Assembly (NCBI RefSeq): GCF_009858335.1
Contig: NZ_VMSE01000002.1
Coordinates: 1 to 64,000 of the forward strand
Source of the DNA: Methylovorus glucosotrophus
GTDB taxonomy: Bacteria > Pseudomonadota > Gammaproteobacteria > Burkholderiales > Methylophilaceae
Direction: 5' to 3'
DNA length: 64,000 nt
The position numbers were made by a program, and so were the translations under genes. Under the pieces are notes generated by a model that saw nothing but the letters and a program-made list of their open reading frames with translations, was not told the DNA's origin and did not search any database. Below, piece after piece: positions 38,891 through 51,013 of this stretch (the stretch's first letter is position 1; every line of letters begins with the position of its first letter).

Positions 38891-40645
38891 TTAAAGATAG
38901 CGGCCAACTTCAGCCATCAACTCATCGGGTAAATCAGGGGTCATGAGATGAATTGGATTGGACTCCATTCCTGTTGGCGTAACTCGGCTAGTGATTTTGG
39001 GGAAATACGTCTGCTCTGGATCAATGGTAACAATGAATGCAGCCGGGCCAGGCTCTGCAAAGAGTCGCTGAAAGTCAGCATCTGCTTCATATCCAGGACG
39101 TAATCTCAGAGATGGAACTTCAAAAGCGGCGAAGAGTTTCTCCCAATTAGGAAGCCCTAATAAGGTATTTCGGTCGCAACCTACATAACGCCCTCCAAAA
39201 TAGCTGCGCTGGGTCATTCGGATGGACGCATATCCCGAGTCATCAAAAATGAACATTTTAAGATTCAGTTGATTAATAGCTGCGGTACCTATTTCCTGAA
39301 TATTTTGGGAGAATCCGCCATCACCCTCTACTAGTATAGTTCTTTTGTCGGGATTGGCGATGGCCGCTCCAATTGCGCCACTAAGTCCATAACCCATTGA
39401 TGCCAAACCCTTGTTTGTCACCATACGTTGTCCGCTCTTTTGGGAAAATACCATCATCATTACGGTAAACGCACTGCCGCTACTACAAGGAATGATGACA
39501 TCATCGTCCCCCGAAATCTTTGATAAATGCTCGACAAAACGATGTGGTGAAATATATTCAGGTCCAGTGACATTTTCTTCAATTAAAGGCAAGCGCTGTT
39601 TCACCGATTGACAATAAGCATGCCATGGAGACCAATCTGAGTGTAAAGCTTGGCTCAAGTCGTCGAGCATGACATTTGCATCAGCACAAATACCAAGGTG
39701 CAGATGTGGATGTCCTTTATCCAACTCCGCTTGGTCGCAGTCAATTTGTACGATTTTTGCATGTGGCCCGAATGCTTGCCAATTAAACCCCGTTTGCTGC
39801 AAACCAAGACGTGTGCCAAAAGCCAAAATCAGATCGGCTTGCTGTAGAAGAATATTGCTGTAACGTTGTCCCCATGTGTTTGGCCGTCCGAAATAGCAGG
39901 GGTGAGAGGCAGCAATGCGATCAGCACCATTCCATGTGGTAAAAATGGGCAAATGAGCTTGAGCCGCAGACTCCCCAAATGATTTGGCAGCCTCTCGACT
40001 TACGCCACCTCCCAGTAATATTGCTGGGCGAGATGCCGATGAGAGAAGACTCTCCCAGTCCACCTTTTCAGTTTTATGCGTGTCGAAGCTCGCATTATGC
40101 CTAGACAGAAAAGCATCCTCTCCGAAGTTGACATCACGAGCTTGCACATCCAAAGGAATTTCAATAAAAACAGGTCCTGGGCGTGGTCCTGCAGATTGAT
40201 AGCTAATTAATTTAACAAATTCATTTTGAGGAACAACATTATCTAGAAGATGACTACGGACAGAAACCGGTTTTGCTAGGCTGACGCCGTCAATTTCCTG
40301 AATGCCGCGCTGGCGTAGCCGACCTCTACTTAAGTCTGCAGTTTTAACCTGCCCCCCTAAAACTAAAAGTTCACGACTTTCTAAAAAAGCACCTGCCATT
40401 CCAGTTAATATATTTGTTAAGCCAGGGCCTGCCGTAACTAACGCTAATGCTTTTGAACCATCAGGAGCAGTCTGGTTATAGTATTCAGCCGCGATACTGG
40501 CTGCAACCTCGTGTGCTACAGGTATGCATGTAAGTTGATGGCTCAAGCTTTCAAGCAAATGCATAATGTTGCCGCCAGCAACGAAAAAGCAGTGAGTGTA
40601 ACCTTCCTCTTTTAAAGCAAGACTAATCAGGTCGCTATATTTCAT
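38891..40645 (-). CDS. Thiamine-diphosphate enzyme (YerE/acetolactate synthase-like)
   Basis: This 584-residue enzyme has the three-domain pyruvate-type ThDP fold. E46 in AHEVAAS is the cofactor-activating Glu, GPGLTNILTG is typical, and VEGDGGFSQNIQEI (near 435) is the ThDP/Mg motif. It is not a housekeeping acetolactate synthase: it has no small subunit partner and sits among CDP-dideoxysugar genes. The closest known role in such context is YerE of Yersinia, which adds a two-carbon acetyl unit from pyruvate to C4 of CDP-4-keto-3,6-dideoxyglucose. That role is inferred. Other carboligase donors remain possible. Confidence 0.8.
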   Translation of the reverse strand: MKYSDLISLALKEEGYTHCFFVAGGNIMHLLESLSHQLTCIPVAHEVAASIAAEYYNQTAPDGSKALALVTAGPGLTNILTGMAGAFLESRELLVLGGQVKTADLSRGRLRQRGIQEIDGVSLAKPVSVRSHLLDNVVPQNEFVKLISYQSAGPRPGPVFIEIPLDVQARDVNFGEDAFLSRHNASFDTHKTEKVDWESLLSSASRPAILLGGGVSREAAKSFGESAAQAHLPIFTTWNGADRIAASHPCYFGRPNTWGQRYSNILLQQADLILAFGTRLGLQQTGFNWQAFGPHAKIVQIDCDQAELDKGHPHLHLGICADANVMLDDLSQALHSDWSPWHAYCQSVKQRLPLIEENVTGPEYISPHRFVEHLSKISGDDDVIIPCSSGSAFTVMMMVFSQKSGQRMVTNKGLASMGYGLSGAIGAAIANPDKRTILVEGDGGFSQNIQEIGTAAINQLNLKMFIFDDSGYASIRMTQRSYFGGRYVGCDRNTLLGLPNWEKLFAAFEVPSLRLRPGYEADADFQRLFAEPGPAAFIVTIDPEQTYFPKITSRVTPTGMESNPIHLMTPDLPDELMAEVGRYL

Positions 40646-40690
40646 AATATCAATTTCTATATGTGTTCCATATTTGCAGAGATTAAAAGC

Positions 40691-49172: not shown

Positions 49173-50243
49173 TCAAATAAGGTGTTGGTACTGCATAATT
49201 TGTTGCTTTGTAACATCCTGCATGGACCGGCCATCCAAGTAGGCTTTGTGCCAGTCAATAATCCATTCCAAAGCTTGGTCAAGATTAATGCGAGGTTGCC
49301 ATTGCAGTTTGGTTTTGGCTTTGGAGATGTCAAGCTTCAGATAGGTGGCTTCGTGTGGTTGCTCACTATTGTCAATTTGCCAACTCGCCCCATTGCCCCA
49401 GATGTTAACCATTCGATCGACAATCCAGCTGACAGGGCGGGCATCATTATCATTGGGGCCAAAGTTCCAAGCCTCTGAGTAAGTGGGGCCATCTGAAATC
49501 ATTCGCTCAGCTAACTGCATATATCCACTTATGGGCTCTAATACATGTTGCCATGGACGAATGGCATTGGGATTGCGGATGGTAACAGGAGAGCCCTTCT
49601 CAATCGCCATCAAGATATCCGGGATCAAGCGATCACCAGCCCAGTCACCACCACCAATTACATTGCCTGCCCGCACAGTGGCTATTGCAACGCCATGATG
49701 CGAAAAGTTTTCCGGATTGAAAAATGAAGACCGGTACGCGGCGGTTGCAAGTTCGGCGCATCCTTTGCTGTTGCTGTAAGGGTCAAAGCCACCCATGGGT
49801 TCGTTTTCCCTGTAACCCCAGGCCCACTCGCGGTTTTCATAGCATTTATCTGTTGTGATAATAACGACAGCTTTGACAGAAGGGGTGTGACGTACAGCTT
49901 CAAGCAGATGAACTGTGCCCATTAAATTTGTGGCATAAGTTTCTACAGGGTTCTTGTAGGAGTAGCGGACCAAAGGCTGGGCCGCCATATGAAATACAAT
50001 CTCTGGTTGAAACGTTTGTAAGCTGTGGGTCAGCCTGGCCAAGTCTCGAACATCACCAATATCTGAGGTCATGCCGTCGGATATTGAGGCGATCTCAAAA
50101 AGGCTGGGAGATGTTGGTGGTTCCAGGGAAAAGCCTTTGAGGTTAGCCCCCAGGCTTTGCATCCATAAAGACATCCACCCGCCTTTGAACCCTGTATGGC
50201 CAGTCAGAAAAACTTTACGACCTCTCCAGAATGAAGGGGTCAT
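49173..50243 (-). CDS. rfbG: CDP-glucose 4,6-dehydratase
   Basis: Converts CDP-glucose to CDP-4-keto-6-deoxyglucose. The 356-residue extended SDR has VFLTGHTGFKGGWM (the GHTGFKG phrase marks this family), FHMAAQPLVRYSY, ITTDKCYEN, and PYSNSKGCAE with Tyr-x3-Lys. The ATG overlaps the rfbF stop (ATGA); GGAAGG stands just before it. It is the second step of the dideoxysugar pathway. Confidence 0.95.
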   Translation of the reverse strand: MTPSFWRGRKVFLTGHTGFKGGWMSLWMQSLGANLKGFSLEPPTSPSLFEIASISDGMTSDIGDVRDLARLTHSLQTFQPEIVFHMAAQPLVRYSYKNPVETYATNLMGTVHLLEAVRHTPSVKAVVIITTDKCYENREWAWGYRENEPMGGFDPYSNSKGCAELATAAYRSSFFNPENFSHHGVAIATVRAGNVIGGGDWAGDRLIPDILMAIEKGSPVTIRNPNAIRPWQHVLEPISGYMQLAERMISDGPTYSEAWNFGPNDNDARPVSWIVDRMVNIWGNGASWQIDNSEQPHEATYLKLDISKAKTKLQWQPRINLDQALEWIIDWHKAYLDGRSMQDVTKQQIMQYQHLI

Positions 50244-51013
50244 GACCAAACCTTCCAAGGTGCATTGCCACTAGCCCACAACTCTTCTAGATGTGTTTTA
50301 TCTCTAAGAGTGTCCATTGGCTGCCAGAATCCTTCGTGCTGATAGGCAGCCAATTGACCCTCGTTGCACAATGCTTCCAGTGGTTCGCGTTCCCAGATGG
50401 TAGCGTCGTCTTCGATGTAATCAATTACTTTGGGAGACAGGACGAAAAATCCGCCATTGATCATACCGCCATCCCCCTTGGGCTTTTCTTGAAATCCCAT
50501 TACTTTGGTACCGTTGAGTGCAAGAGCGCCAAAACGGCCTGGAGGAAGGGTTGCAGTGACTGTTGCCAGCACATTTTGCTGATTGTGAAATTGGATAACA
50601 TCCTTGATTGGCACATTACTTACGCCATCACCGTAAGTGAGACAGAAAGCTTCTTCATCTCTCACGTAATCCGCTATTCTTCTGATACGACCACCGGTCA
50701 TGGTCTCATCCCCTGTATCTACTAGCGTGACTCTCCATGGCTCAGCTTTGCGATGATGTACTTCCATCGTGTTATCTTGCATATTGAATGTGACATCAGA
50801 CATATGCAAAAAATAATTGGCGAAGTATTCTTTAATTACATAGCCTTTATAACCGCAGCAGATTACAAAGTCTTGAATACCATGGTGTGAATATATTTTC
50901 AGGATGTGCCATAAAATAGGTTTTCCACCAATTTCTATCATGGGCTTGGGTTTAAGGTGAGTTTCCTCTGAGATGCGGGTCCCTAGCCCGCCTGCCAAAA
51001 TGACTGCCTTCAT
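50240..51013 (-). CDS. rfbF: Glucose-1-phosphate cytidylyltransferase
   Basis: Makes CDP-glucose from CTP and glucose-1-phosphate, the entry to CDP-3,6-dideoxyhexoses. The 257-residue length equals the family norm from the ATG at MKAVILAGG. Motifs are LAGGLGTRISEET, KPKPMIEIGGKPILWHI, FCLTYGDGVSNV and GFWQPMDTLRDKTHLE. It is the first gene of the polysaccharide cluster. An upstream ATG four codons earlier is possible, but neither start has a strong Shine-Dalgarno. Confidence 0.95.
   Translation of the reverse strand: MKAVILAGGLGTRISEETHLKPKPMIEIGGKPILWHILKIYSHHGIQDFVICCGYKGYVIKEYFANYFLHMSDVTFNMQDNTMEVHHRKAEPWRVTLVDTGDETMTGGRIRRIADYVRDEEAFCLTYGDGVSNVPIKDVIQFHNQQNVLATVTATLPPGRFGALALNGTKVMGFQEKPKGDGGMINGGFFVLSPKVIDYIEDDATIWEREPLEALCNEGQLAAYQHEGFWQPMDTLRDKTHLEELWASGNAPWKVWS

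Follow-up and report, generated by a model that had tools for sequence, protein, structure and literature searches.

Closest described systems

The described systems nearest to the gene cluster considered here, which occupies 38.9-51.0 kb of a 64,000-nucleotide stretch of the Methylovorus glucosotrophus genome (assembly GCF_009858335.1, contig NZ_VMSE01000002.1, positions 1 to 64,000; hereafter the window), make sugars that carry a carbon branch at C4. In the yersiniose A pathway, as proposed here for the window, a thiamine diphosphate (ThDP) enzyme, YerE, performs a carboligation onto CDP-4-keto-3,6-dideoxyglucose, while the related ErwE (erwiniose) prefers longer hydroxylated 2-oxo acid donors and MygE (gastriose) takes a broad C3-C8 range (PMC12247030). 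Papers are cited here by PubMed Central accession for the excerpts of their text that were available, and statements about them refer to those excerpts. YerE uses pyruvate and so adds a two-carbon branch, whereas the window adds to the ThDP gene an aldolase, an AroB-like enzyme and a short-chain dehydrogenase (SDR). The erwiniose and gastriose branches are not known to need removal of a terminal phosphate oxygen, and no AroB-like step is therefore expected in their synthesis.

The second system is the lipooligosaccharide (LOS) locus of Mycobacterium marinum (MMAR_2328-2333, numbers partly assigned by position). Like the window, it combines rfbF, rfbG and rfbH with genes for a GtrB-like protein, a type I ThDP enzyme, an aldolase, an SDR and an AroB-like protein. 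It differs in having an FGGY kinase gene adjoining the AroB-like gene and, in the stretches read, no orthologue of the window's epimerase-like SDR; the window's set, for its part, belongs to an O-antigen- or exopolysaccharide-type locus that also encodes GtrA, a Wzx-like protein and a membrane protein of 754 aa. The sugars described from M. marinum LOS include caryophyllose alongside glucose, xylose, methyl-rhamnose and a dideoxygalactose that is N-acylated and bears a pyrrolidone; caryophyllose is 3,6-dideoxy-4-C-(D-altro-1,3,4,5-tetrahydroxyhexyl)-D-xylo-hexopyranose (PMC5706390). Caryophyllose was described in 1995 (references in PMC9026286), and the sugar of Pseudomonas (now Trinickia) caryophylli bears a name that, by our reading, gives the same configuration (PMC9026286). 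Among open-licence PubMed Central papers, none was found that sets out how its long branch is made.

From its genes, the window cluster is likely to produce a long C4-branched 3,6-dideoxyhexose. It is also favoured, with less assurance, that this is a CDP-activated caryophyllose-type sugar made by the full route set out below, a complete carbon-by-carbon proposal starting from pyruvate, erythrose 4-phosphate and CDP-glucose. If true, the proposal would solve how caryophyllose is made. Its new idea would be a homologue of 3-dehydroquinate synthase (DHQS, AroB) that does not cyclize.

Gene content of the cluster

The cluster comprises eleven minus-strand genes with intergenic gaps of -38 to +50 bp throughout, and so reads as one operon. 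All the genes named in the original prediction, which had proposed from the DNA alone a pathway to a branched-chain or carbocyclic deoxysugar, are open frames on the minus strand within 38891-51025; the gtrA gene at 43006-43398 was absent from its gene list. In order of transcription the genes are:

50240..51013, minus strand: rfbF (ddhA), glucose-1-phosphate cytidylyltransferase (TIGR02623, 486.9 bits, cut-off 300)
49173..50258, minus strand: rfbG (ddhB), CDP-glucose 4,6-dehydratase (TIGR02622, 512.7 bits, cut-off 278)
47832..49157, minus strand: rfbH (ddhC), CDP-4-keto-6-deoxyglucose 3-dehydrase (NF011936, 750.9 bits, cut-off 423)
46948..47829, minus strand: epimerase-like extended SDR with His replacing the Tyr of YxxxK (PF01370, 97 bits; HGFSK)
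46120..46920, minus strand: HpcH/HpaI-fold class II pyruvate aldolase (PF03328, 26.3 bits; AlphaFold fold matches)
45420..46130, minus strand: SDR (PF13561, 91.8 bits)
44348..45457, minus strand: AroB-like protein (TIGR04425, 302.9 bits; 38-bp overlap with the SDR gene)
43382..44344, minus strand: GtrB/ArnC-like GT2 polyprenyl-phosphate sugar transferase (PF00535, 95 bits; PgfS/ArnC models)
43006..43398, minus strand: GtrA-type flippase, 130 aa (PF04138, 50.6 bits, cut-off 26.1; start predicted from sequence)
40691..42955, minus strand: 754-aa membrane protein (no Pfam or NCBIfam family)
38891..40645, minus strand: YerE/JanthE-like ThDP carboligase (three TPP Pfam domains)

RfbF, RfbG and RfbH all exceed their NCBIfam equivalog cut-offs, which bears out the CDP-4-keto-3,6-dideoxyglucose pathway originally assigned to them. 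The start of rfbF is probably at 51013, as the TIGR02623 match opens at residue 5 of the longer frame (to 51025). The RfbH translation contains AHHIT and a Cys cluster.

Proposed route

The branch of caryophyllose reads CHOH-CH2-CHOH-CHOH-CHOH-CH3. A ThDP enzyme adding it would use the donor HOOC-CO-CH2-CHOH-CHOH-CHOH-CH3, a 3,7-dideoxyheptulosonic acid, which is the skeleton of 3-deoxy-D-arabino-heptulosonate 7-phosphate (DAHP) minus the C7 oxygen. By our derivation from the names published for the M. marinum and Pseudomonas sugars, branch carbons C3', C4' and C5' have the D-ribo configuration; the latter two agree with D-erythrose 4-phosphate, while C3' is opposite to DAHP. The product of DAHP synthase would thus be unsuitable, and a separate pyruvate aldolase makes sense.

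In the proposed route, RfbF, RfbG and RfbH would form CDP-4-keto-3,6-dideoxyglucose by the established chemistry of their families, and the HpcH-fold aldolase would join pyruvate to erythrose 4-phosphate to give 3-deoxy-D-ribo-heptulosonate 7-phosphate, the C4 epimer of DAHP. In the first half of the DHQS reaction, C5 is oxidized, the C7 phosphate is lost, C5 is reduced and the ring opens to a C6 enolate. The AroB-like enzyme would perform the same oxidation, elimination, reduction and ring opening; the novel part would be that C7 is then protonated, with no attack on C2, leaving a 6-keto-7-methyl acid. Going on to a carbocycle would use up the C2 ketone on which the ThDP enzyme depends, so ring closure is not expected of the AroB-like enzyme. 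The SDR would reduce C6 to give 3,7-dideoxy-D-ribo-heptulosonate, and the ThDP enzyme, by analogy with MMAR_2332 and ErwE, would decarboxylate this 2-oxo acid and transfer its six-carbon acyl unit to the ketone at C4 in the CDP-sugar. The branch ketone would be reduced by a reductase, perhaps the epimerase-like SDR. Going by their families, GtrB would transfer the sugar to polyprenyl phosphate, GtrA would flip it and the 754-aa membrane protein would add it to the polymer. The route accounts for the carbons and the three chain stereocenters of the branch.

Recurrence of the gene set

Related loci were gathered by scanning named genomes with an alignment of the aldolase, and the best 80 of at least 543 confirmed stretches were taken. 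They come from Proteobacteria, Acidobacteria, Actinobacteria, Cyanobacteria and others. At the thresholds used, these 80 loci contain genes for the AroB-like protein (59), the SDR (60), the ThDP enzyme (67), rfbF (46), rfbG (41) and rfbH (53). At least 7 kb is available on both sides in 48 loci (full-flank loci); the other 32, which have under 7 kb on one flank, do not enter the counts that follow. Among the 48, the AroB-like gene is present in 37, the SDR gene in 37, both together in 37 and the ThDP gene in 44. Eleven were counted as being without the AroB-like gene, of which two (L069 and L034) have one elsewhere in the same genome. The SDR gene is found in 37/37 loci with the AroB-like gene and in 0/11 whose stretch lacks that gene (Fisher p 4e-11, a value that is only a guide as the loci are related).

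The original prediction had proposed searching genomes for the aldolase, SDR and cyclase genes together with rfbFGH. The combination recurs: the AroB-like gene, the ThDP gene and at least one of rfbF, rfbG and rfbH occur together in 33 of the 37 full-flank loci with the AroB-like gene, and the other cluster genes were found, within about 10 kb, around none of 10 housekeeping aroB genes. The gene association is therefore not due to chance. In one genome of the same family (L137), seven core genes form a compact operon in the order rfbF-rfbG-rfbH-SDR-AroB-like-ThDP-aldolase. The cluster is of a real kind, intact and widespread; cyanobacteria that carry the set include Synechococcus, Aphanothece, Cyanobium and Prochlorococcus (L039, L052, L053, L059, L061 and L080).

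Loci without rfbH in the stretch include those of Rhizobium, Bradyrhizobium and Methylotenera, and five of them (L081, L082, L075, L055 and L005) also have a more distant ThDP type. In such loci the branch should be placed on CDP-4-keto-6-deoxyglucose, with the oxygen at C3 kept. A 3-O-methylated C4-branched sugar has been described from Rhodopseudomonas palustris (PMC9912281). The window AroB-like gene falls into a loose group (84/76) with loci some of which have that more distant ThDP type, and genes of the set may therefore have been exchanged. FGGY-family kinase genes lie near the AroB-like gene in all eight mycobacteria that have it and in two Bradyrhizobium loci; the window cluster contains none. 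Two features of this type are:

L050:12619-13935: FGGY-family sugar kinase
L081:6672-8009: FGGY-family sugar kinase

A search across the Bradyrhizobium family matched only the query genome of 296.

If the proposal is true, branch length and end group could be read from the genes, according to whether a locus has the ThDP gene alone, the ThDP gene with the aldolase gene, or the ThDP gene with the aldolase, SDR and AroB-like genes.

The AroB-like protein

The AroB-like protein is matched best, with 302.9 bits, by TIGR04425 ('AroB-related putative sugar phosphate phospholyase (cyclizing)'). This falls short of the model's cut-off (400), and the score against the aroB model TIGR01357 (254 bits) is also under the cut-off (305). 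A housekeeping aroB that passes the curated cut-off (390.6 bits) is present elsewhere in the genome (C1:454048-455064). This second gene rules out the AroB-like gene as the sole or housekeeping AroB; the original prediction had named a sole AroB as a finding that would tell against its pathway.

An alignment of 67 AroB-like rows with 10 DHQS was used for comparison. It includes the window and M. marinum, the latter twice (P0137 and L095), and one doubtful row (L007; 164 bits, branch 3.25). In the tree the 67 rows, some of them long-branched, are separated from the 10 DHQS with 100/100 support. D102, R113, D129, K135, N145, E177, K180, K219, R233, N237, H240, H244 and H256 are kept in 67/67 rows, and K323 in 66 with a gap in one; all 14 are DHQS active-site residues, in agreement with the intact NAD and metal motifs reported for the cyclase originally. 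E177, H240 and H256 align with residues that we take to be the metal ligands of Aspergillus nidulans DHQS, and K219 and R233 with its presumed carboxylate-binding residues. The conservation of K219 and R233 supports an acid substrate, as expected for a DAHP-like acid.

The protein thus resembles AroB in family, in NAD- and metal-binding residues and in carboxylate-binding residues. It differs in its separate clade, in having GGKSSIN where DHQS has GGKTGIN, and in its gene neighborhood, as its gene lies beside an SDR gene in 37/37 and a ThDP gene in 33/37 full-flank loci. Positions more than 85% conserved in both groups number 47, of which 44 are identical and 3 differ, from DHQS to AroB-like, by T to S (W136), G to S (W137) and V to I (W223). 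At a further 43 positions the 10 DHQS are conserved but the AroB-like rows are variable; these include 143, 149 and 152 beside the KN motif.

The balance of the evidence tips just toward this clade of DHQS homologues, from proteobacteria, acidobacteria, actinobacteria and cyanobacteria, being a non-cyclizing phospholyase that, with the SDR, makes the 3,7-dideoxyulosonate donor of the ThDP enzyme for C12 branched sugars. If so, deoxygenation can take the place of ring closure in the active site of DHQS. We know of no deoxygenation of this type in the DHQS superfamily.

The aldolase, dehydrogenases, ThDP enzyme and transfer proteins

The HpcH/HpaI aldolase of the original prediction is upheld by a Pfam score just above threshold (PF03328 HpcH_HpaI, 26.3 bits, cut-off 25) and by its predicted fold; it has no NCBIfam match. 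The AlphaFold model has a predicted local distance difference test score of 93, and its best matches among solved structures are HpaI/HpcH class II pyruvate aldolases (template modelling score about 0.6). K55, E113, R141 and D143 are invariant in 25 relatives, and E113 and D143 are taken for putative metal ligands. A Trinickia acidisoli aldolase matches at 72%.

Both dehydrogenases described originally, an SDR and an altered epimerase, are present. The SDR carries GxxGxxG and YxxxK, and its Ser...YxxxK pattern occurs in 56/56 relatives from the loci. The epimerase-like SDR has HGFSK, with His in place of the Tyr of YxxxK, as has one of the four orthologues found. It was considered as a core enzyme and rejected, as only 4/80 loci have an orthologue at the threshold used; it is a candidate for reducing the ketone at C1' of the branch.

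All three TPP domains are present in the ThDP enzyme, with a GDG motif and catalytic Glu that are both kept in 54/54 type I relatives, in line with its original description as YerE-like. Its best solved structure by sequence is 8rph (279 bits), taken to be JanthE because the alignment shows the CDG motif reported for that enzyme. The window enzyme differs from JanthE in having GDG, not CDG, and DD, not NN, at the second motif: residues 467-471 are FDDSG, with DD instead of the usual NN, and D at the second of these two positions occurs in 23/54 type I relatives. The GtrB-like protein is 57-59% identical to the products of mycobacterial genes, and a relative adjoins the M. marinum ThDP gene. 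The position of the 754-aa membrane protein gene points to a GT-C-type transferase of a GtrA/GtrB/Gtr set, and the three proteins together suggest periplasmic addition of a sugar from polyprenyl phosphate.

Mycobacterium marinum and other mycobacteria

The AroB-like protein of the M. ahvazicum locus shares 82% identity with P0137, a protein that bears the name '3-dehydroquinate synthase [Mycobacterium marinum]'. P0137 itself is encoded, at 100% identity, in genome G244. G244 is accordingly called M. marinum here, by a name on a protein cluster formed at 90% identity. Its gene order is FGGY kinase, AroB-like, SDR, aldolase, ThDP and GtrB, with rfbF, rfbH and rfbG next; an orthologue of the window's epimerase-like SDR was not seen in the G244 stretches read. 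The original prediction had named caryophyllose as a relative of its product, and the presence of the gene set in the LOS locus of a caryophyllose producer strengthens that comparison.

Mutants in MMAR_2331, MMAR_2332 and MMAR_2333 accumulate LOS-II*, which is without caryophyllose (PMC5706390). MMAR_2332 is a YerE-like ThDP enzyme with an ErwE-like donor preference for hydroxylated 2-oxo acids (PMC12247030), and MMAR_2333 is a GT-A transferase (PMC4403928, on M. kansasii LOS). With the ThDP gene as MMAR_2332 and the adjoining GtrB gene as MMAR_2333, the adjoining aldolase gene would by position be MMAR_2331. The gene mmar_2329, which is expressed and repressed by a small RNA (PMC12395582), would by the same reasoning be the AroB-like gene. 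The excerpts of PMC13354803 and PMC12507525 hold no content on these genes. The donor preference of MMAR_2332 makes the two-carbon, yersiniose-like branch implied by the original prediction unlikely; such a branch is also disfavored as leaving the aldolase, SDR and AroB-like set unexplained.

A ThDP gene of the MMAR_2332 type was found in 13 of 396 mycobacterial genomes. Eight of the 13 have the aldolase, SDR, AroB-like and FGGY kinase genes, two have the aldolase without the AroB-like gene (G256 and G003, Mycobacterium sp. OTB74) and three have neither (G055, G114 and G385; in G385 the contig with the ThDP gene is 4.4 kb long). Absences of the aldolase and AroB-like genes are genome-wide. In the five AroB-negative genomes, no kinase or matching SDR gene was found next to the ThDP gene in the stretches fetched, of which one spans 4.4 kb; the search for the kinase covered these stretches. 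A kinase gene next to the AroB-like gene would suit an AroB-like step that acts on a phosphorylated substrate. In G296 the aldolase gene is 12 kb from the AroB-like gene.

The match to the ThDP gene of G041 is split over two frames. Two mycobacterial ThDP genes look broken (L099:4699-6521 and L134:8470-10272), one matching in two frames and the other having a stop near its end.

Alternative explanations

The conservation of the 14 DHQS active-site residues compared, and the word 'cyclizing' in the name of TIGR04425, would suit an AroB-like enzyme that closes a ring, acting either before coupling, on the free aldol product, or afterwards, on the branch, to give a cyclohexane-bearing sugar. Caryose and bradyrhizose are known carbocyclic sugars; a 2016 paper (PMC4743980) did not yet know the bradyrhizose genes. 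However, closure before coupling would destroy the 2-oxo acid, and an enzyme acting after decarboxylation is hard to square with the kept carboxylate-binding residues. DHQS-type closure also leaves a CH2, whereas bradyrhizose has oxygen on its ring carbons. The M. marinum genome has the set, yet no carbocycle is named among the LOS sugars in the excerpts of PMC5706390. Ring closure is therefore considered unlikely, and of the two products offered originally it is the branched sugar that is supported, with ThDP chemistry on CDP-4-keto-3,6-dideoxyglucose and a chain supplied by the aldolase, and the carbocycle that is not. Less probable again is that two pathways share the locus, the ThDP enzyme and RfbFGH making a simple branched sugar and the aldolase, AroB-like enzyme and SDR a quinate- or shikimate-like substituent. 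The strict coupling of the AroB-like and SDR genes (37/37) is what a stand-alone module would show, and the ThDP gene does occur without the AroB-like gene in some loci and genomes; against this, the ThDP gene is present in 33/37 full-flank AroB-like loci and within the compact seven-gene operon of L137, the hydroxylated 2-oxo acids taken by MMAR_2332 are ones that the module could supply, and the excerpts of PMC5706390 mention no substituent of this kind in M. marinum. The acceptor aldehyde could also be another one, such as a pentose or a deoxy-tetrose, with the AroB-like enzyme acting ahead of the aldol reaction and taking a small sugar phosphate as substrate. The FGGY kinases beside the AroB-like gene in 8/8 mycobacteria, and near it in Bradyrhizobium, fit phosphorylation of a sugar, and the aldolase also occurs without the AroB-like gene. 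The kept carboxylate-binding residues nevertheless point to an acid substrate, and the stereochemistry fits erythrose 4-phosphate without further assumption, making this the least probable of the three.

Several observations weigh against the caryophyllose-type route itself. Its product is predicted from gene content, and the caryophyllose comparison depends on the cluster-derived name of G244. The action of MMAR_2332 on a ketone has not yet been demonstrated (PMC12247030). The 14 kept residues mean that the sequence of the AroB-like protein does not forbid cyclization, the differing positions (136, 137, 223 and the 43 variable ones) are of candidate importance only, the TIGR04425 cut-off was passed in 0/10 genomes with aldolase loci, and no experiments on these AroB-like proteins were found in the open-licence PubMed Central literature. 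Aldolases of AroB-like loci had been predicted to form their own clade, as would befit a different aldehyde. This was not borne out over 55 sequences: the tree has no split by presence of the AroB-like gene (10 changes; 114/500 shuffles as low), although the 12 negative rows include L034, which is doubtful because an AroB-like gene lies a little beyond the stretch in that genome. It therefore gives no sign of a changed aldolase substrate, and it also suits the reading with another aldehyde; the two mycobacterial AroB-negative aldolases do branch apart from the positives. The rarity of the epimerase-like SDR (4/80 loci) makes reduction of the branch ketone the weakest assignment. Finally, among the five PF00175 proteins of the genome that were scanned, none is named as RfbI/DdhD, the reductase partner of RfbH; a candidate electron donor for RfbH is a 365-aa ferredoxin-containing reductase with a BenC/MmoC-type ferredoxin reductase match, encoded outside the cluster (G000:C1 near 39946-40263; L102:1408-2505).

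Distribution and genomic setting

The aldolase was found in 0/2 genomes of the same genus, 1/16 of the same family and 0/12 of the same order, and the AroB-like gene in 0/273 other sampled genomes of the window's class (E 1e-55). The one same-family genome with the aldolase (L137) also carries the AroB-like gene, at 45% identity. The guanine plus cytosine fraction is 0.33-0.47 over 34-50 kb, against 0.54-0.59 beyond 52 kb and 0.50-0.58 at 12-34 kb. The cluster is patchy in distribution and looks acquired.

Directly upstream of rfbF, on the minus strand at 51297-52481, is a gene for a sigma-54 activator of 394 aa, in which Pfam reports no receiver domain. Downstream of the cluster, also on the minus strand, 33070-38870 encodes a sugar-phosphate transferase, an epimerase, three glycosyltransferase-like proteins and a Wzx-like flippase. 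The glycosyltransferases, the Wzx-like protein and the sugar-phosphate transferase mark the region as a surface-polysaccharide locus.

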